Shown in pieces: positions 7,881 to 39,912 of a DNA stretch of 63,922 nt. A program made the position numbers and the translations under genes. Below the pieces are notes generated by a model, which saw only the letters and a list, made by a program, of their open reading frames with translations, searched no databases and was not told the DNA's origin. Numbering within the stretch: position 1 is the stretch's first letter; each line of letters starts with the position of its first letter. Source of the stretch: Gammaproteobacteria bacterium (GTDB taxonomy: Bacteria; Pseudomonadota; Gammaproteobacteria; SZUA-140); contig JAKISP010000019.1 in the NCBI GenBank assembly GCA_021648525.1, forward strand, positions 1 to 63,922, given 5' to 3'.

Positions 7881-8780
7881 ATGGATGGGTTTAGTGCAAT
7901 TCCGGTGTTTGTGGCGGTGGTCGAATGTGATGGTTTTTCCCCGGCTGCGCGTAAGCTGGGGGTATCAAAGTCTGCGGTGAGTAAGCGTATTACTCAGTTG
8001 GAAGATAAACTTGGCGTTCGCCTGCTCTATCGCACCACGCGCAAACTGAGTCTCACCGAGGCGGGGGAGTATTACTACGCCAATGCGGTGAAGGCGTTGG
8101 CCTATGCCAGTGAGGCGGAGGATGCGGTGACGCAGTTGCAGCAGACGCCGCAGGGGCGTTTGCGGATTAATACCCCGATGTCGTTTGGGCGGCTGCACAT
8201 TGCACCGCTCATCCCGCAGTTTCTTAAACGTTATCCCAGGATACAGGTTGATATGGTGATGGATGATCGAGTGGTGGATCTGGTGGAGAGCGGTTTTGAC
8301 TGTGCCATCCGCGGTGGTGATCTACCGGATTCAACCTTGATTGCGCGTAAGCTTGCCTCACTGAGGCTGGTATTATGTGCTTCGCCCGACTATGTGGCGC
8401 AGCATGTGATGCCAACAACTCCAGCGGATCTGGTCGAGCATGACTGTCTGCTATTTACCTATTCAGTGAGCGAATGGCCTTTTTCAGCCGCTGGCAAAAT
8501 GGAATCGGTGCGGGTGAGCGGCAGCTATCAGGCGAATAATAGTGAGGCGTTACGCGAGGCGGTGCTGCAGGGGATGGGGATCAGTCGTATCCCTTTATTT
8601 GTGGTGGGGAAGGATATCAGGGCAGGGCGACTGGTTGAGGTGCTGGCGGATTATCAGATGCCAGTAAAGGCGCTCTATGCCCTGTTTCCCAGGCGCCAGC
8701 ATCTGCCAGCCAAGGTGCGAGTATTTATTGACTTTTTGGTGGAACATCTGGGGGGGGATCTGCCTTATTGGGATGCGTGA
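7881..8780 (+). CDS. LysR-family transcriptional regulator
   Basis: A 299-residue regulator. The winged helix-turn-helix spans about residues 1-60 (GFSPAARKLGVSKSAVSKRI as recognition region, then LEDKLGVRLLYRTTRKLSLTEAG), followed by a periplasmic-binding-like effector domain beginning near residue 90 (GRLRINTPMSFGR). The ATG at 7881 is used because upstream in-frame codons run through the operator region and lack conservation with the family. It is transcribed divergently from the VOC/nitroreductase/exporter genes, the usual position for their activator. The subgroup resembles the DsdC/AaeR-like regulators of detoxification genes. Confidence 0.9.
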   Translation: MDGFSAIPVFVAVVECDGFSPAARKLGVSKSAVSKRITQLEDKLGVRLLYRTTRKLSLTEAGEYYYANAVKALAYASEAEDAVTQLQQTPQGRLRINTPMSFGRLHIAPLIPQFLKRYPRIQVDMVMDDRVVDLVESGFDCAIRGGDLPDSTLIARKLASLRLVLCASPDYVAQHVMPTTPADLVEHDCLLFTYSVSEWPFSAAGKMESVRVSGSYQANNSEALREAVLQGMGISRIPLFVVGKDIRAGRLVEVLADYQMPVKALYALFPRRQHLPAKVRVFIDFLVEHLGGDLPYWDA

Positions 8781-9089
8781 GTTCAAGCCAGAGGTGCTAA
8801 TGATGGCTCGCTATTGCAGCGGTTTGTAGACCATTGCCTTAGGGGTGGGTTAGCCTGTCGAGAAAAAAGCGCTGAGATCGGCGCTGCTGGGCCACAAAGG
8901 TGTGGTTAAGTTGGCGTTTATGGTACTATTTCGGGCTTGATACGAGAGTACGGGTCTGGGGCTGTTGTGAAGTGGGCGGATATTCGCTGGTCAGTGTTAG
9001 ATTGGTGCTCTGCACACCCTTAAGTTAGTAGATGCTAGACAGACTTCGACGTTTAATGCGCCATTTAGACAGGACAGATTAATTCCCCG
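8781..9089. other. Intergenic region upstream of gyrA
   Basis: This 309-base gap between the LysR gene and gyrA has no credible gene. It contains only a weak 5-bp hairpin (AGCGC...GCGCT near 8867-8886). It must hold the gyrA promoter, but I saw no hexamer pair with good spacing and do not place one. Confidence 0.5.
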
Positions 9090-11732
9090 ATGAGTGAAAT
9101 CGCTAAAGAGATAGTCTCCACCAATATTGAGGAGGAGATGAAGCGCTCCTACATGGAATACGCAATGAGCGTAATCGTAGGGCGTGCTTTGCCGGATGTT
9201 CGAGACGGTTTGAAGCCGGTTCATCGTCGCGTGTTATATGCGATGCATGGGCTCAATAACGACTGGAATAAACCTTACAAGAAGTCGGCACGTGTGGTCG
9301 GTGATGTGATTGGTAAATACCATCCACATGGTGACTCTGCTGTTTACGACACCATCGTGCGTATGGCACAGCCATTTTCATTGCGCTACATGCTAGTCGA
9401 TGGTCAGGGTAACTTCGGTTCTGTCGATGGTGATTCACCGGCGGCGATGCGTTACACGGAAGTGCGGATGTCAAAGATCGCGCACGAAATGATTGCTGAT
9501 CTTGAAAAAGAGACGGTTGATTTCGTCTCCAATTATGACGAATCTGAGAAAGAACCGGTTGTCTTCCCGGCGCGTATCCCATGCCTGTTGATTAACGGTT
9601 CGGCGGGTATTGCGGTTGGCCTTGCGACCAATATTCCACCACATAATCTGACCGAAGTAATCAACGCCTGTCTGGCGGTGATCGATGATCCTGAGATTGG
9701 TATCGCGCGCCTGCTTGATTTTATTCCGGGGCCAGATTTCCCAACCGCTGCGATTATTAACGGCGTGCGTGGTATTCAGGAGGCCTACTATACCGGCCGT
9801 GGGCGTATCCATATTCGTGCACGCTCTCACTTTGAGCCTTACGGTAAGCACAATGACCGTGAACGTATTGTTGTGACCGAGTTGCCGTATCAGGTTAATA
9901 AAGCGAATCTACTGGAGAAGATTGCACAGCTAGTTCGTGAGAAAAAACTTGAAGGTATCAGTGAGTTACGAGATGAATCTGATAAAGACGGTATGCGCAT
10001 GGTGATCGAGCTAAAGCGCGGCGAAGTGACCGAAGTCGTGCTGAATAATCTTTACAAGCACACCCAGATGCAGAATGTCTTTGGCATCAACATGGTGGCG
10101 CTGATCGATGGTCAGCCGAAGCTGCTTAACCTGAAGCAGATTCTGGAGGCGTTTGTACGTCATCGTCGTGAGGTAGTGACACGCCGTACCGTATTTGAAC
10201 TGCGTAAAGCGCGTGATCGCGCCCATAACCTTGAAGGGCTTGCGGTAGCGCTCTCTAATATTGATGAAGTGATCGCCCTGATTAAGGCGGCGCAAAACCC
10301 TGCTGAGGCGAAGCTTCAGCTGGTATCGAAGGCGTGGCGTCCGGGTGCGGTTAGCGACATGCTGGATCGTGCCGATGCGACTGCCCGCCCTGAAGAGCTG
10401 GGTGTTGAATATGGCCTGGGTGACGAGGGCTACCGTCTTTCACCGACTCAGGCTCAGGCAATTCTTGATCTACGTTTACATCGCTTGACAGGGCTTGAGC
10501 AAGATAAAATAATTAAAGAATACAGGGAGATACTGGATGTTATTGCGAAATTACTTGAGATACTGACTAATCCGGATCGCCTGATGGAAATAATCCGAGA
10601 AGAGCTGACAGCGATCCGTGATCAATATGGTGATGAGCGTCGTACAGAAATTCTTGCTTCTTCACTCGATCTTTCACTGGAAGATCTAATCACTGAAGAA
10701 GATGTGGTGGTAACGCTTTCACACGGTGGTTACGTGAAGGCGCAGTCGCTTGATACCTATCAGGCGCAGAAGCGTGGTGGCCGTGGTAAGTCGGCAACTA
10801 ATATGAAAGACGAAGATTTTATCGACAAGCTAGTCGTGACCAATACCCATGACACCATTCTATGCTTTTCTAGCCGCGGTAAGGTCTACTGGAAAAAAGT
10901 ATACGAGTTGCCGCAGGCAAGCCGTACTTCGCGTGGTAAGCCGATTATTAATCTGCTGCCGCTGGAAGAGGGTGAGCGTATCAATGCGGTACTGTCGGTG
11001 CGTGAGTATGATGCTGATAAATATATCTTGATGGCGACCAGCAGCGGTGTGGTTAAAAAAACGCCGTTGGCGGATTTCTCGCGGCCGCGTACAAACGGGA
11101 TTATTGCGCTAGAGCTGCGTGATGATGACCGTCTGATCGGGGTCGATATCACCGATGGCTCAAAAGATGTGATGTTGATGACCAGTGCCGGTAAAGCGAT
11201 CCGTTTCAATGAAGAGGCGGTGCGTCCGATGGGCCGTACCGCGCGCGGTGTGCGTGGTGTTAAGCTAGGGCCAGATCAGACTGCGATCTCACTCATTGTG
11301 GTGGATGACGGTGATGTATTGACCGTGACCGAGAAGGGCTACGGTAAACGTACCGCGATGAGCGATTATCCAGTGCACGGGCGTGGTGGCCAGGGTGTGA
11401 TCTCGATTCAAACCTCGTCGCGCAATGGTAATGTGGTTGGTGCCGATCTGGTGCACGATGATGATGAGTTGATGTTAATCACCAATGGCGGGACGTTGGT
11501 TAGAACCCGAGTAAACGAAGTCTCGATTCAGGGGCGTAATACTCAGGGTGTGCGTCTAATCCGCTTGAGTGATGATGAGCGCCTGGTGGGGCTGGATCGT
11601 ATCGCAAATCTTTCAGCGGATGAGGTTGCTGGCGATGCTGATGCTGAAGCAGCAAGTGATGTAGAAGGTACTGTTGATGATGGGCCTGAATCACCGGCAG
11701 ATAATACGCCGGAAGCTCCAGTTAAAGATTAG
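9090..11732 (+). CDS. gyrA: DNA gyrase subunit A
   Basis: An 880-residue breakage-reunion subunit of the type II topoisomerase that introduces negative supercoils. The catalytic tyrosine is Tyr122 within MRYTEVRM, at the same number as in E. coli. The quinolone-resistance region reads [10 protein letters not shown] with Ser83 and Asp87, i.e. the sensitive wild-type form. The GyrA box KRGGRGK that allows DNA wrapping is present near residue 560, followed by the beta-pinwheel repeats. The C-terminus ends in an acidic Ala/Asp/Glu/Pro-rich tail. A 53-base gap leads to serC. Confidence 0.98.
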
Positions 11733-14078: not shown

Positions 14079-15161
14079 ATGCAAGATACTGGTGGTCTAC
14101 AGGCAGTGCGTGTGCGCATTGATGAGATCGATGAAAAAATTCAGGCGTTGATTACCGAGCGAGCCAGGTGTGCCGAGGAAGTGGCGCGCCAAAAAGGCAA
14201 TGGCCCGGAAGTGGTCTATTATCGCCCTGAACGTGAGGCGCAGGTATTGCGTGCGGTAATGGCGCGTAATAAAGGGCCGCTCGATGATGAGACCATGGCA
14301 CGTCATTTTCGTGAGATTATGTCGTCCTGCCTGGCACTGCAATATCCGATGAAAATTGCATTTCTGGGGCCGGCCGGGACGTTTACCGAGGCGGCGGCAA
14401 CCAAACATTTTGGCAATGCAGTGACAACAGTGCCGATGGTGGCGATTGATGATATCTTTCGTGAGGTTGAATCTGGCAGCGCGCACTATGGCGTGGTACC
14501 AGTGGAGAACTCAATCGAAGGGGTGGTTAATCACACGCTTGATATGTTTATGAACTCACCGCTTAATATTTATGGTGAGGTTGAATTGCGTATTCATCAT
14601 AATTTGATGAGTCGTTCGAAAGATTTAAAATCGATTAAAAAGCTTTATGTTCACTACCAGGCGCATGCGCAGTGTCGCGGCTGGCTCGATGCAAATTTGT
14701 CGGGGATTGATTATGCAGTGGTCAGTAGCAATGCCGAGGCAGCCAGATGTGCGGCTGAAGATGAGAGCGCTGCGGCGATTGCGGGCGAGAAGGCGGCGGA
14801 GATTTACGGGCTTGAGATATTAGCGAGTAATATTGAAGATGAGCCGGATAACACCACGCGCTTTTTGGTGATTGGTAATAATCTGGCGCAGCCAGGTGGG
14901 CAGGACAAAACCTCGCTGTTGGTTTCGACGGTCAATAATCCGGGTGCGTTACACAAACTGTTAAAGATATTTGCTGATAGTGATATCTCGATGACGCGTA
15001 TCGAGTCTCGTCCGTCACGACGAGGCATGTGGGACTATGTCTTTTTTATCGATATCGAAGGACATGTACAGGAACCTGTGGTCGAAAAATCACTACAGCG
15101 GCTGCAAAATGAGGGCTATATGGTTAAGGTGCTCGGTTCGTATCCTAATGCGGTGCTGTAG
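14079..15161 (+). CDS. pheA: Bifunctional chorismate mutase/prephenate dehydratase (P-protein)
   Basis: About 360 residues in three modules: an AroQ-type chorismate mutase helix bundle (about 10-90, VRVRIDEIDEKIQALI and YRPEREAQVLR), the prephenate dehydratase domain starting IAFLGPAGTFTEAA (about 98), and a C-terminal ACT domain with GALHKLLKIF and IESRPSRRGMWDY for phenylalanine feedback. It makes phenylpyruvate from chorismate. The ATG at 14079 is preferred; a TTG at 14061 would add six residues. It is part of the operon running from serC, followed by a strong hairpin before the DAHP synthase gene. Confidence 0.96.
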   Translation: MQDTGGLQAVRVRIDEIDEKIQALITERARCAEEVARQKGNGPEVVYYRPEREAQVLRAVMARNKGPLDDETMARHFREIMSSCLALQYPMKIAFLGPAGTFTEAAATKHFGNAVTTVPMVAIDDIFREVESGSAHYGVVPVENSIEGVVNHTLDMFMNSPLNIYGEVELRIHHNLMSRSKDLKSIKKLYVHYQAHAQCRGWLDANLSGIDYAVVSSNAEAARCAAEDESAAAIAGEKAAEIYGLEILASNIEDEPDNTTRFLVIGNNLAQPGGQDKTSLLVSTVNNPGALHKLLKIFADSDISMTRIESRPSRRGMWDYVFFIDIEGHVQEPVVEKSLQRLQNEGYMVKVLGSYPNAVL

Positions 15162-15179
15162 TACGTAACCAATGAACGT

Positions 15180-15208
15180 GTCGCTGTTCAGATGAGCTGA
15201 ATAGCGAC
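15180..15208 (+). promoter_or_regulatory. Strong RNA hairpin between pheA and the DAHP synthase gene
   Basis: Bases 15180-15191 and 15197-15208 form a 12-bp stem with a single G-U pair around the loop ATGAG. No T-run follows directly. A seven-codon frame (ATG at 15171, stop at 15192-15194, one Phe) overlaps the 5' arm. This could be an attenuator, an mRNA-processing site or a stabiliser between two genes of the same pathway. Confidence 0.5.
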
Positions 15209-15246
15209 TGAATATTTAAGATTATTTTAGAACCAGGAAAAGTAAC

Positions 15247-16263
15247 ATGATCATTATCATGAACACGAAAGCTGCGGATGAGCAGGTAAGCGCAGTAGAA
15301 GAAAAACTGGCCCAGATGGGGTTGAGTTCAAATGTATCACGCGGCATTCAGCGGATTGTCATCGGCGCGATCGGTGATGAGCAGGCGGTCGATCAGGAAG
15401 CACTGGAAGCGCTGCATGGCGTTGAAAAAGTGGTACGGGTGATGAAGCCGTATAAAATTGTGGCGCGTGAGTCACATGAGGAAAGTACCATTGTTAATGT
15501 GGCGGGTATTCCTATTGGCGGTAATACGGTGCAGGTGATTGCAGGGCCTTGCTCTGTTGAGACACCGTCGCAGATGGCAGCGGCGGCGGAAGGTGTTGCA
15601 GCCGCGGGTTGTCGTTTAATGCGCGGCGGTGCGTTTAAGCCGCGTACCAGCCCTTACTCTTTTCAGGGGGTGGGTGAAGATGGTCTATCCATGTTTCGTG
15701 ATGCGGCGAGTGTGCATAATCTACCGATTGTTACTGAGCTGATGGATGTGCGCATGCTCGACACCTTCCTTGAAAACAAGGTTGATGTGATTCAGATTGG
15801 TACGCGCAACATGCAAAACTTTGATCTATTGAAAGAGGTGGGTAGAACGCAGGTGCCGGTGATTTTGAAACGCGGTATGTGTGCGACGATCTCTGAGTGG
15901 TTGATGTCGGCGGAGTACATAGCTGCGGGTGGTAATCACAATATTATCTTTTGTGAACGTGGTGTTCGTTCATTCGAAACCGCGTACCGCAATATGCTTG
16001 ATGTCACTGCGATACCAGTACTGAAACGTGAAACACATCTACCGGTGATTGTTGATCCCAGTCATGCTGGCGGTAAAGCATGGATGGTGCCTGAGCTATC
16101 ACGCGCGGCTGTTGCAGCGGGCGCGGATGCACTACTGGTTGAAATGCACCCTTGTCCGCAGGATGCATGGTGTGATGCTGACCAGGCGTTGAGTGCACCA
16201 GAGCTGGCCGCACTCATGGTTGAGCTGGGTGGTATTGCTAAAGTGCTTGGACGCGATATCTAG
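15247..16263 (+). CDS. aroF: 3-deoxy-7-phosphoheptulonate (DAHP) synthase, type I-beta
   Basis: A 338-residue DAHP synthase that joins PEP and erythrose-4-phosphate, the entry step of the shikimate pathway. An N-terminal ferredoxin-like regulatory domain (about 1-75, starting [14 protein letters not shown]) precedes the barrel with [35 protein letters not shown] and [15 protein letters not shown]. This is the Thermotoga/Bacillus I-beta architecture with a feedback domain, unlike the I-alpha AroF/G/H of E. coli, so the symbol is by function only. It lies between pheA and tyrA, where many gammaproteobacteria have hisC. Confidence 0.93.
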
Positions 16264-35769: not shown

Positions 35770-36636
35770 ATGTTACGGACAATACCCGGCGTTAGTATTG
35801 GCATGCCTGTATATAATGGAGAGTCTTATATTCGGAAGGCTCTTGATGCACTTCTAGGCCAGACATACACTGATTTTGAATTAGTGATTTCCGATAATTT
35901 ATCCACTGACTCAACCTGGGCAATTTGTAGTGAATATGCGGCGAGGGATTCGCGCATCAAAATTTTTAGGCAGCCAGAAAATATGGGGGCTATGGGGAAT
36001 TTTCAGTTCGTGTTGGGTGAGGCTAGGCGAAAATATTTTATGTGGGCTGCTTGTGATGATGTTTGGGATAAAGATTTTATATCAGAGTGTGTCGCTTGCC
36101 TCGACGAAGACGCGCAAGCAACAATGGTTTTCCCAAGAGCTTGCGTTATGTCTGCCGCTTTTCCTCTACTTAGCATGAAGACTTTGCCTGATTTGTCATT
36201 TGTCAGTAATGAGGATGCGTGCGTTAGAATAAAAAACTTTATTTTTCTGGATGAATCATCCCATAAGGCTAATGTTATCTATGGCGTATGGAGGGTGGGT
36301 AAGGCAAAACATTTTATGGAGGTATGGAAAGGGCTTGCTGCTGTGAAAATAAACCTCAGGTTTAGTCTGGATGGTGTGGCTTGCGCTATTTTCTTTGCGC
36401 AAAACAGGGCTGTTCAGATTGATAAGGTTTTGTTTTACAAATATTATCGATATATCCCACCAGGCCATTCTTTAGGTAATATTGTAGCTAAGATTAATTT
36501 TAATGCGGATACTAGGAAAAAATCTAAGCAGGAACTGGTTTCTAATAATGCAAAAGTAATAAAACGTACATTGAAAAAGCAGGGAGTGTGGAGTGAAAAA
36601 CATGAAAAAATCATTGCTATGTACATTGCTCGGTAG
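35770..36636 (+). CDS. Family 2 glycosyltransferase
   Basis: A 288-residue GT-A enzyme: VSIGMPVYNGESYIRKALDALLGQTYTDFELVISDN at the start and a MWAACDDVW segment holding the DxD-type metal site. The acceptor and donor are not predictable. Its reading frame stays open for 36 more codons after the TAG at 36634-36636, to a TAA at 36745-36747, so the C-terminus may have been shortened by a point change. It is followed by a 148-base gap. Confidence 0.85.
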   Translation: MLRTIPGVSIGMPVYNGESYIRKALDALLGQTYTDFELVISDNLSTDSTWAICSEYAARDSRIKIFRQPENMGAMGNFQFVLGEARRKYFMWAACDDVWDKDFISECVACLDEDAQATMVFPRACVMSAAFPLLSMKTLPDLSFVSNEDACVRIKNFIFLDESSHKANVIYGVWRVGKAKHFMEVWKGLAAVKINLRFSLDGVACAIFFAQNRAVQIDKVLFYKYYRYIPPGHSLGNIVAKINFNADTRKKSKQELVSNNAKVIKRTLKKQGVWSEKHEKIIAMYIAR

Positions 36637-36784
36637 AGTAGCGCAATAATTATTGATGATATGGAGCAGTTTTCTTTAAGGGAATTATCTTCCAGCATGG
36701 AAGTATCTCTGCTGAATTTGAGTGACAGGCTAAGGGAAATTATATAATTACTATATTGAGATTGGACTAGCGGGAAATAGTTGA

Positions 36785-37291
36785 ATGGTTGAACTAGAGC
36801 GGCGGCTTCCATCCTTCTTGAGTGGAAGGTTTGTATTCGAAAGAAGCGACTTGATAGGAATAGATAGGCTGTACGTGGGCCTATTAAGTAGCAATGTGAC
36901 TCCTAGAATAAAGTATGTGTCTATATACGATACACCTCATTATGCCTATGCATCTCATGTTTTAAGGAATATTCCGTTGAGATCAGCATATGGATACAGA
37001 GACTATTTGGAGTATAAGTCATTGCACTCGCACTTACACTCACACTCTGAAATAGGCTTTAGGAATCTTATTTTTAGCATGCAGAAAGAAGGTTATGATA
37101 GTCAGAACTACCCTATTCTTGTGTTTAGGCATTGGAGTAGACAGTCGCCCTTAAATCGTTGGGATGTTGCTGATGGTTTTCATAGATTATCGGTTCTGGC
37201 AGCATTAGGTGAAAAAAACATTAAAGTCGATAGGCTGAAATATAAATATAGTCTTGTTGAGCGAATAAAAAGGCGTCTGTTTAGTGGTTAA
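36785..37291 (+). CDS. Small protein with ParB/Srx-like DGFHRLS motif, function unknown
   Basis: A 168-residue soluble protein not assigned to a known polysaccharide enzyme. Near residue 140 it has WDVADGFHRLSVLAALG, resembling the phosphate-binding DGxHR box of the ParB/sulfiredoxin fold, which includes ParB CTPases and a family of free-serine kinases. The N-terminal half is basic and aromatic with a His-rich SLHSHLHSHSE stretch. It overlaps the next gene (a nucleotidyltransferase/kinase-like fusion) by 8 bases, so the two probably act together. AT-rich codon use matches its neighbours. Confidence 0.55.
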   Translation: MVELERRLPSFLSGRFVFERSDLIGIDRLYVGLLSSNVTPRIKYVSIYDTPHYAYASHVLRNIPLRSAYGYRDYLEYKSLHSHLHSHSEIGFRNLIFSMQKEGYDSQNYPILVFRHWSRQSPLNRWDVADGFHRLSVLAALGEKNIKVDRLKYKYSLVERIKRRLFSG

Positions 37292-38564
37292 GGAAGATAA
37301 AACATTTGAGAGCGTGGTTTTGCCGCCCCAGCAACAACTGCTTGTCCAGTTAGGTGTGGCAGATGTTGACTACGTTCTTATGAGGGAACCCAGTCAGTGG
37401 GCTGATTCTGGTGATATTGATATATTAGTACGGGATGTGGATGAGTGTGATGAGCTGTTGAAGTCGTGGGGGTTCCTAGGGTTTTCTACGGATAAGCATA
37501 GTAAAAAATACCTTAAATATGATGGTGATAGTGGCTGGTGGATACATCTCGATGTCGTGTCAGCTATTTGTATTGGGGGTGTTGAGGCACCAGCAGGATT
37601 CGTAGAAAACTTGTTAAGTTTATCTGAAGTAGGTGTGGACGGAATCAGCCGATTGAACGCCTATGATGAGGCGATACTCCTTATCTACCATGCGGCATTG
37701 AATAAAAACTACTTTAGTCAAAGATATATGAAGGACATTTTGCAAGTAGATCTAATAGGGTTAGAAGAACGTGCAGCTTCATATCAATTTTTGCCAATGT
37801 CTCCGGGGGGATACATACAGCTAATTCAAAGGTTCCAAAGTGGCACGATCAAAGAGAGTGACGTAGTTAAGGCTATTCAATCTAGTTTTCCCAGAGCGGC
37901 CTCAGGAAAATCTTACTTACTGGCACGAGTAACTAGCAGGCTTAAAATGTTTATGAAGAGGAATCAGGCTATTGTTTTTTTAGGGCCAGATGGGGCTGGT
38001 AAAAGTACTATAACAGAATCGCTTACAGGCTTAAGATGGCCAAGTGTGCAGCGTCAATTCATGGGGCCTGCCAGGAAGGCTGCGATGAAGCCGTTGTTTT
38101 TTTTCTTATTATCATTTTTGGGAAAGTTACGAGAAAGGCATACAAAAGGAACGCCCATTGGGTTGGCTGCGCGTAGTATATGGCAATTTGTCTGCTATGT
38201 TGATTTCCTTGAGCGTTTGTATAGGCATAAATGGTATTGGGGGAGTGGTGGAGTCGTAATTTTCGACCGTTACGCTTGCGATATGTTTTTTAGGAAACCA
38301 TCATGGCTTAATGAGATAATTTTCATTAAATTATTTCCAAAACCTAAATTTGTTTTTTTGTGCATGGGTGAACCCGGTTTGATATACCAAAGAAAACCGG
38401 AACTCACTATATCCGAAATAGAAAATACGATTGAATTATACCGAAAAAAACTCTTGCAATACGATATTCCATACAGTGAGGTTGATACTACGAGTAATAC
38501 CCCAGCTGATAATATCGATCAAATTGTAACTAAACTAATTAGTGATGATTGGTATAGGAATTAA
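37284..38564 (+). CDS. Nucleotidyltransferase-like plus thymidylate-kinase-like fusion protein
   Basis: A 426-residue protein of two parts. Residues about 25-145 resemble a MNT-type nucleotidyltransferase (DSGDIDILVRD at 41-51, then WWIHLDVV supplying a third acid). From about residue 228, VFLGPDGAGKST is a clear P-loop (234-242) of the thymidylate-kinase type, with a FDRYACDMFF segment and an Arg-rich lid later on. Such proteins occur in capsule and O-antigen loci without a settled role. The start is uncertain: GTG 37284 overlaps the preceding gene. It may phosphorylate a sugar, glycerol-like group or lipid in the glycan pathway, but that is inference. Confidence 0.6.
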   Translation: MVKEDKTFESVVLPPQQQLLVQLGVADVDYVLMREPSQWADSGDIDILVRDVDECDELLKSWGFLGFSTDKHSKKYLKYDGDSGWWIHLDVVSAICIGGVEAPAGFVENLLSLSEVGVDGISRLNAYDEAILLIYHAALNKNYFSQRYMKDILQVDLIGLEERAASYQFLPMSPGGYIQLIQRFQSGTIKESDVVKAIQSSFPRAASGKSYLLARVTSRLKMFMKRNQAIVFLGPDGAGKSTITESLTGLRWPSVQRQFMGPARKAAMKPLFFFLLSFLGKLRERHTKGTPIGLAARSIWQFVCYVDFLERLYRHKWYWGSGGVVIFDRYACDMFFRKPSWLNEIIFIKLFPKPKFVFLCMGEPGLIYQRKPELTISEIENTIELYRKKLLQYDIPYSEVDTTSNTPADNIDQIVTKLISDDWYRN

Positions 38565-38658: not shown

Positions 38659-39912
38659 GTGAGCAATGACCTGTTAAAAACCTGTCTAGTTCTTGCCTGC
38701 GTTTCAATAGTGATACTTTTTGTATTCCGCTATCTTAGAGAGAGAGATCGTGTCTTTTGGGATAGCAGTACCTATTTTATTTTGCTGTCGTGTTTGTATA
38801 TTGGGATTCCTGCGTGGGTACATCTTGATTCAGGAGTAACGCATGTTGGCGCGTCAAAAGATACAATTCGATTTTTTGCGCAATATTCACTTTACTTTTT
38901 ATGCATATTGGTCGTGTATTACACTGTTAAGGTGTTTTTGTATAATAGTTTACGCCCGGTTATAGGCAGTATATCGCTATTGCCAATTAGGACGAATGTC
39001 ATATATACATTGTATGCACTGATTTTTTCATATATTTGGCTAGTGTTCTTCGCTAATTCACCTGGGATTAATGAGCTTTGGTCTAACCGATCGCTAGCAA
39101 GCTCATTTTCCACAGGTATTAATAATAGATTCAAAGTTACATTTTTATTTTTTTCTGTTGTATCAATGGTAGTCTATTTAGTATTGAAAAATAGACGAAC
39201 ATGGTATTTCATCATGTTGCTCCCATTTATAACATTAGACTTGATGACTACCGGCCGTGATTTTTTGTATCAGTCTTTGATGGTGTGGATTGTTATTCTT
39301 CTGATTCAGAATCGAAAGATACCGATTGTTAAGTTAGTATTGGCATGTTTTTTGGTGACTTCATTTGAGGTAATCCGGGTTGTCTGGAAGCGAAGCTTTG
39401 AGTGGGAGGAGTTTTTATTTATTCCCGGAGAGCTAAGATTAAGCGCGGAATCTGGGTTGTTGATTTTAGAGTCCAATAAGTCAGTAGACATGCTCGCTTA
39501 CGTTATATATTCGATTGGAAAGGTGTTTACTCCTCAGGCAATGACTATCTTATTTAATGGTACTCCCCATTTTTCAAAAATAATTACGGAAGAGGCTTCG
39601 TTCTTACATTTTGGTTTAGGGGGGTCACTTCTCTCCGAAGTATTTAGTTTTAAAAACAATATAGCTTTGATTTTATATCCTTTTTTAATTATAGTTTATT
39701 TGGAGTTTATAAATTTGTTACGTCGCAAAGGGGGGATGTTTGGCCTTTTGGTTTTCGTCTATTTTTTAATGTCAACAATATCCATGTTTCGTGCGGGTGT
39801 GCTATTTGCCGGAGTCGACCCCTTCTACTATGCTATATACGCATGCATATGGTATTGGGTTCTTGTCTCTTCTTTCAACAGTAGGAAACTCTCTAAAACC
39901 CATACTCTTTAA
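38659..39912 (+). CDS. wzy: O-antigen polymerase (Wzy-like)
   Basis: A 417-residue protein with about ten to twelve membrane helices and a large hydrophilic loop between about residues 235 and 310 (GRDFLYQSLMV helix before it), the general topology of Wzy. Sequence identity in this family is too low to prove the assignment, but a locus with wzx and wzz needs one and this is the only candidate. It starts at a GTG. Codon use is very AT-rich. Confidence 0.7.
   Translation: MSNDLLKTCLVLACVSIVILFVFRYLRERDRVFWDSSTYFILLSCLYIGIPAWVHLDSGVTHVGASKDTIRFFAQYSLYFLCILVVYYTVKVFLYNSLRPVIGSISLLPIRTNVIYTLYALIFSYIWLVFFANSPGINELWSNRSLASSFSTGINNRFKVTFLFFSVVSMVVYLVLKNRRTWYFIMLLPFITLDLMTTGRDFLYQSLMVWIVILLIQNRKIPIVKLVLACFLVTSFEVIRVVWKRSFEWEEFLFIPGELRLSAESGLLILESNKSVDMLAYVIYSIGKVFTPQAMTILFNGTPHFSKIITEEASFLHFGLGGSLLSEVFSFKNNIALILYPFLIIVYLEFINLLRRKGGMFGLLVFVYFLMSTISMFRAGVLFAGVDPFYYAIYACIWYWVLVSSFNSRKLSKTHTL

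Follow-up and report, generated by a model that had tools for sequence, protein, structure and literature searches.

An overlapping gene pair in an O-antigen-type locus and evidence for a recurrent kinase, nucleotidyltransferase and thymidylate-kinase-like module in polysaccharide loci

We analyzed two genes, referred to here as A and B, that lie on the forward strand of a 63.9-kb stretch of bacterial DNA (the window). Gene A (positions 36785 to 37291) starts with ATG and encodes 168 amino acids, while gene B (37284 to 38564) starts with GTG and encodes 426 amino acids. Both frames are open, and profile searches (below) make a chance origin of either frame unlikely. The two genes overlap by 8 bases (37284 to 37291), which suggests that they are translationally coupled. 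They are flanked upstream by a GT2 glycosyltransferase gene (35770 to 36636) and downstream by a 417-amino-acid open reading frame (38659 to 39912) with no Pfam match at E ≤ 1. Within the locus Pfam identifies Wzz, NTP_transferase with mannose-6-phosphate isomerase (ManC-like), GDP_Man_Dehyd, Polysacc_synt_2, methyltransferases, Glycos_transf_1/2/4/11 and a carbamoyltransferase, and by this gene content the surroundings of A and B are an O-antigen-type locus. The first-pass annotation of this DNA had described an 8-base overlap inside such a locus, and both the coordinates and the Pfam neighbors agree with it. Beyond the TAG stop of the GT2 gene the frame stays open for 36 codons up to a TAA (window positions 36634 to 36747), which could reflect a premature stop or chance.

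We found that B is a nucleotidyltransferase (NTase) domain fused to a thymidylate-kinase-like (TMK) P-loop domain, with its motifs intact. The NTase active-site stretch (37410 to 37559, forward strand) runs from GDIDIL (residues 43 to 48) to HLDVV (residues 88 to 92) and contains three acidic residues. The P-loop LGPDGAGKST (37980 to 38009, forward strand; residues 233 to 242), a DRY motif of the TMK type, FDRYACD (38262 to 38282, forward strand; residues 327 to 333), and the motif YQRKPEL (residues 368 to 374) follow. Every one of the 12 aligned fusions keeps the NTase DxD, the third acidic residue, the P-loop, [DE]R[YF] and RKxE, which indicates that the P-loop domain is not visibly degenerate; a degenerate P-loop, named in the first-pass annotation as an argument against its own reading, was not seen. 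Its description of B as an NTase and TMK-like fusion also stands. A profile of eight fusions from which B had been left out finds B over residues 17 to 418 (E 3.7e-22). None of 2000 shuffled B sequences was found by that profile up to E 1. Against the PDB, the C-terminal domain of a profile of six fusions (A2) matches thymidylate kinase structures (4unn, E 1.6e-5) together with many other P-loop proteins, the top row among the best 60 of 206 being a small 'phosphate-loop protein' (6c2u).

B passes no Pfam cut-off. It shares the P-loop GxDGxGKST and the DRY motif with thymidylate kinases (PF02223), but differs from them in giving no match to that model at E ≤ 1, in its fusion to an NTase domain and in its setting, where dTMP is an unlikely substrate; two relatives of B, L064 (33.1 bits) and L032 (31.9 bits), do exceed the PF02223 cut-off of 27. 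With the NTP_transf_5 nucleotidyltransferases (PF14907), which include the lasso-peptide enzyme PsmN, B has in common the DxD, the third acidic residue and a kinase partner, whereas its score (E 0.0041, 17.1 bits) lies below the cut-off of 31.2 and a TMK-like domain is present in B. A structure prediction of B from its single sequence had a mean pLDDT of 36.

We defined a strong fusion as a protein with both domains that matches the A2 profile at E ≤ 1e-30. With B as the query, 15 of 369 genomes of the class matched at E ≤ 0.001, and with A2 there were matches in 8 of 94 relatives at E ≤ 1e-5 and in 10 of 369 genomes at E ≤ 1e-15 (own genome included throughout). These searches produced eight other strong fusions, one in the same genome (contig C70; L005) and another in a second genome of that genus (L066). 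Six further strong fusions came from plasmid records (four of Leisingera, one each of Agrobacterium leguminum and Hymenobacter swuensis); with B itself as the query, plasmids gave no match. Short P-loop-only matches to B (L014 to L022, L025) are outside the locus comparison, and one candidate fusion, L087 (G044), turned out to be a stand-alone tmk.

An APH-fold kinase is present in the same locus in all 14 stretches with a strong fusion, as judged by an APH model built without the tested locus. The stretches are a non-random sample; counting the nearly identical L005 and L028 as one lineage, and the four Leisingera plasmids likewise, they represent approximately 10 lineages. The APH gene is the next gene in five stretches (L005, L026, L028, L029, L066), one to four genes away in seven (L027, L065, L079, L082, L084, L085, L086) and fused in two, with opposite domain orders: NTase-TMK-APH in L064 (816 amino acids) and APH-NTase-TMK in L080 from Hymenobacter (823 amino acids). 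As an independent check, the Pfam APH model passes its cut-off in 9 of the 14 stretches, gives subthreshold matches (E 1e-4 to 7e-4) in three (L029, L066 and L064, the last at E 7.1e-4 only when the segment was scanned alone), and is absent at E ≤ 1 in two (L080, L085). Given that absence, the assignment in L080 rests on our APH model (E 1.8e-24, with L080 outside the training set) and on a kept HGDFTPWN motif. Our APH models matched 0 of 17 other stretches of at least 10 kb, a set that includes L087 and the loci of five weaker two-domain proteins described below. One of these 17, the A-like locus L077, contains an APH gene according to Pfam, and an APH model whose training set included a fragment of this protein (L036) matches the gene too; in L077 an A-like gene lies near the APH gene, without B. 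L069 is not counted here, since it had been retrieved with an APH query. No APH gene was found in the 63.9 kb of the window with our APH models.

On these sequence comparisons, the strong relatives of B are well supported as part of a recurrent module of kinase, NTase and TMK-like domain in polysaccharide loci. All six plasmid records label the fusion 'hypothetical protein'. The APH partner carries the label 'phosphotransferase' in Agrobacterium and on three of the four Leisingera plasmids. The second B-type gene of the same genome, with its own APH kinase, lies on contig C70 (L005:477-9248). By eye, the other products of this locus include an FkbH-like HAD-type protein, a flippase and a dehydratase/SDR-like fusion, and the cluster is nearly identical in G177 (L028).

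Against a reference model of 11 APH-associated fusions, from which three of the four Leisingera copies were omitted, B scores 73.9 bits. Scored with models built without them, the 11 members reach 156 to 364 bits (L005 and L028 were withheld jointly, the others singly), five weaker APH-less two-domain proteins (L067, L068, L073, L074, L088) score 39 to 51 bits, and a housekeeping-type tmk scores 49.5 bits. B's score is outside the range of the APH-associated group. In sequence, B has diverged further than every APH-associated fusion in the sample and is nearer the APH-less ones, and because of this divergence it may belong to a group that never had an APH partner. Two readings of B remain: it may have diverged along with a change of partner from APH to A, or it may come from such a never-APH group. 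A tree of 12 B-type fusions has good support for one of nine inner branches and places the window row on a long branch, and it therefore does not date the gain or loss of APH.

Four of the weaker proteins (L067, L068, L073, L074) form a second group of NTase/P-loop proteins of approximately 480 to 515 amino acids, in which an N-terminal CHWKS/N-type motif can be seen by eye. A different P-loop kinase-like gene, of 257 to 265 amino acids, adjoins the fusion in L068 and L074, and in L073 such a gene lies near it on the other strand with a small open reading frame between (all by eye). No adjacent or nearby gene of this kind was seen in L067 or L088. The latter (G079) is a weaker NTase-TMK fusion; its locus is glycan-like by eye and, over 12 kb, lacks both APH and A-like genes.

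Protein A contains a box of the ParB/Srx type, DGFHRLSVLAALG (residues 130 to 142 of A, forward strand), with DGFHR at residues 130 to 134. Searches of Pfam and NCBIfam assign A to no family at E ≤ 1. We found that a family profile of A and five relatives (A3) matches SbnI in the PDB (5uje, E 4.9e-4; 6nr6, 0.0045; 5ujd, 0.0053), and that this is its only significant match, the next row having E 1.1; A alone as the query did not find SbnI up to E 10. The profile alignment spans approximately 60 residues and includes a DG-x-HR box common to both proteins, DGFHR in A and DGVHR in SbnI; we have set RYMVIDGVHRFMSLKALG of SbnI alongside RWDVADGFHRLSVLAALG of A. The N-terminal part, in which the catalytic glutamate of SbnI/SerK presumably lies, is outside this alignment. 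When Pfam ParB_N (PF02195) is run against the genome with a limit of E 10, A is not matched, the sole match being a ParB-type protein on contig C59 (E 8.8e-41). The first-pass view that A has a ParB/Srx-type box thus holds at the level of profile comparison, where the DGFHR box and the SbnI match support the fold, and not at that of the ParB_N model. AlphaFold2, run on two sequences (A and the L038 fragment), predicted A with a mean pLDDT of 33.2.

Like the free serine kinases SbnI and SerK, A has a DG-x-HR box followed by a stretch that ends in ALG; unlike them, it is 168 amino acids long, lies in an O-antigen locus and matches no named family. Its likeness to the APH-fold phosphotransferases (e.g., L005, L026, L029) is one of position, since both accompany a B-type fusion in loci of this type, and it differs from them in having no match to our APH models or to Pfam APH.

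The relatives of A are remote and rare. With A alone as the query we found matches in 1 of 94 relatives at E ≤ 0.001 and in 4 of 369 genomes of the class at E ≤ 0.01, with the A1 profile in 4 of 274 at E ≤ 0.01, and with A3 in 5 of 299 genomes of the phylum at E ≤ 0.001 (own genome included in each). The pairwise matches are weak (E 0.004 to 0.01). A profile of the five relatives, with A left out, recovers A at E 1.2e-6 and none of 2000 shuffled A sequences up to E 10, a test that is not fully independent because the relatives came from searches with A or its first relatives. Plasmids gave no match to A, viral contigs gave none to A or B, and among public genome contigs 0 of 82 pattern matches were confirmed with the A1 profile. 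A DNA-pattern search returned two stretches, both rejected: L037 has no A-like open reading frame at the matched site, and the protein of L038 is a repeat of that in L030. We also dropped a match in G106, which has two internal stop codons, and one in G207 (L034), by eye a ParB-like protein beside a transposase-like gene.

Nine A-like stretches reach at least 10 kb, and in four of these a glycan or polysaccharide gene supported by Pfam lies within approximately 2.5 kb of the A-like gene: TupA-like ATP-grasp and sulfotransferase in L030, a GT4-type gene in L071, a heptosyltransferase (GT9) in L076 and a GT2 gene in L077. The other five are L031, L070, L072, L078 and L081. The lipopolysaccharide-type locus of L076 holds two adjacent, overlapping A-like genes (8067 to 8747 and 8741 to 9400, reverse strand), along with a third, weaker one (14901 to 15542, forward strand) that appeared at E 1.2e-4 in one profile search and was missing from another. 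In two stretches the A-family profile matches the C-terminal part of a larger protein: residues 276 to 343 (E 3.9e-7) of a protein that is RHS-like by eye (L072:7010-8053, reverse strand), and residues 490 to 548 (E 2.4e-6) of a protein encoded in a region that is haemagglutinin/CdiA-like by eye (L078:5237-6937, forward strand). A small open reading frame directly follows each (L072, 6687 to 7010; L078, 6939 to 7313), and these are candidate immunity genes.

The first-pass annotation had presented A and B as a coupled pair and took co-occurrence outside this genome as the mark of one. We found an A-like gene in 0 of the 14 stretches with another strong B-type fusion, and a strong B-type fusion in 0 of the 9 A-like stretches of at least 10 kb. 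Within our samples the claim is refuted on these terms, and we reject A-B as a conserved unit, the pair being seen in one genome only. Since each genome search was a sample of at most 369 genomes, closer A-B pairs may exist elsewhere. The open-access literature, with subscription journals mostly outside it, yielded no published description of the A-B pair or of a module of kinase, NTase and TMK. Overall, the first-pass observation is confirmed and its interpretation is partly supported.

We tentatively place B, as an NTase/nucleotide-kinase-like enzyme, in a pathway that decorates polysaccharides with phospho-groups, and propose that A, replacing APH, serves as its partner kinase; we regard this as possible, though it is more doubtful than probable. 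Such a pathway would have three catalytic parts: a kinase acting on small molecules or sugars, a domain of the NTase fold and a TMK domain resembling nucleotide kinases. The kinase part would be APH-fold in the strong loci; in the window it would be A, as a minimal kinase of the SbnI type (ParB/Srx fold) whose reading frame overlaps that of B. A would phosphorylate a small hydroxyl compound, for which the SbnI product O-phospho-L-serine offers a precedent. The NTase domain of B would then couple a nucleotide to the phospho-compound, or transfer the phospho-compound, and the TMK-like domain would phosphorylate the nucleotide conjugate in the manner of APS kinase, an enzyme that phosphorylates a nucleotide conjugate. 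The activated group would finally be placed onto the O-antigen. We infer the kinase activity of A, its role as a substitute, the sharing by B of the function of the strong group, all substrates and the order of steps. A phosphoryl or nucleotidyl modification, which the first-pass annotation had suggested, is the natural reading, and the APH kinases beside the strong fusions point the same way.

Known systems offer analogies for this mechanism, and we claim no homology to any of them. Campylobacter Cj1415-1418 make CDP-phosphoramidate 3'-phosphate, a likely donor for capsule decoration, from glutamine, ATP and CTP (PMC11800397); this methyl-phosphoramidate pathway works like the one proposed for B in that it supplies a nucleotide-activated phospho-decoration, there for a capsule. 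Cj1436 converts L-serine phosphate to ethanolamine phosphate, a precursor of capsule decoration (PMC11800397). LicD-domain proteins, which are members of the NTase superfamily, are described in phosphocholine metabolism and phosphomannosylation (PMC5681524). PsmK and PsmN, discussed below, are a further works-like case.

As a stand-in for the APH kinase, A is plausible, from sequence, but unproven. The proposal that A replaces APH draws on the APH kinase in 14 of 14 strong stretches and its absence from the window, on the SbnI match of A and on the use of L-serine phosphate in Campylobacter. It is weakened by the divergence of B, by the single occurrence of A-B, by the weak pairwise matches of A and by an SbnI match that stops short of the N-terminal part, as well as by the B-type gene of the same genome that has its own APH (L005) and by L077, where an A-like gene and an APH gene occur without B. 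The APH kinase on contig C70 might serve B. There is a serious possibility, if somewhat short of an even chance, that A and B are independent, with B lacking a dedicated kinase or using one in trans such as that on C70, and A an unrelated ParB/Srx-fold protein in a mosaic O-antigen locus. The score of B between the APH-associated group and the APH-less proteins, the weaker fusion of L088, the adjacent APH gene of the second B-type gene in this genome and the absence of strong fusions from all nine A-like stretches favor independence, while the translational coupling suggested by the overlap and the kinase found in every locus of the strong group argue against it.

A might also be no enzyme at all. 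It would then be a ParB/Srx-fold regulator, either an NTP-binding subunit or a sensor, of B or of the polymer machinery. Domains of the ParB fold frequently serve to bind NTPs (CTP, ATP or GTP) and may be retained as binders without catalysis (PMC12704722), and A is small, with 168 amino acids compared to 242 to 256 for SbnI chains. We nevertheless consider a regulatory A quite unlikely, given that it shares the DG-x-HR box with the kinase SbnI and that strong B-type fusions elsewhere adjoin a kinase-fold protein. It is similarly conceivable that B, alone or together with A, modifies the polymer directly. One example would be a PsmN-like reaction in which a phosphate-linked glycosyl or capping modification is added to a phosphate placed by a kinase. 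In the lasso peptide pseudomycoidin PsmK phosphorylates a serine and the NTase homologue PsmN then adds hexoses (PMC9266682), and the NTase domain of B is weakly similar to PF14907. However, a review treats the PsmN assignment itself as uncertain (PMC9266682), and the additional nucleotide-kinase-like domain of B is not needed in the PsmN scheme; action on the polymer appears distinctly improbable.

From the module of kinase, NTase and TMK-like domain one would expect many surface polysaccharides to bear decorations that contain phosphorus or are nucleotide-activated. For the window, a stronger form of our proposal would make A a small-molecule kinase of the ParB/Srx fold that replaces the APH-fold kinase in a three-part decoration pathway and yields a new nucleotide-activated phospho-group, which we consider unlikely on present evidence. 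As far as the open-access literature shows, no ParB-fold kinase is known to work in glycan decoration, and A, if this were true, would be the first. The words polysaccharide, O-antigen and lipopolysaccharide are absent from the main text of a 2025 survey of the ParB/Srx fold (PMC12704722). If A does the work of the APH kinase, the ParB/Srx fold would gain a role in glycan chemistry.
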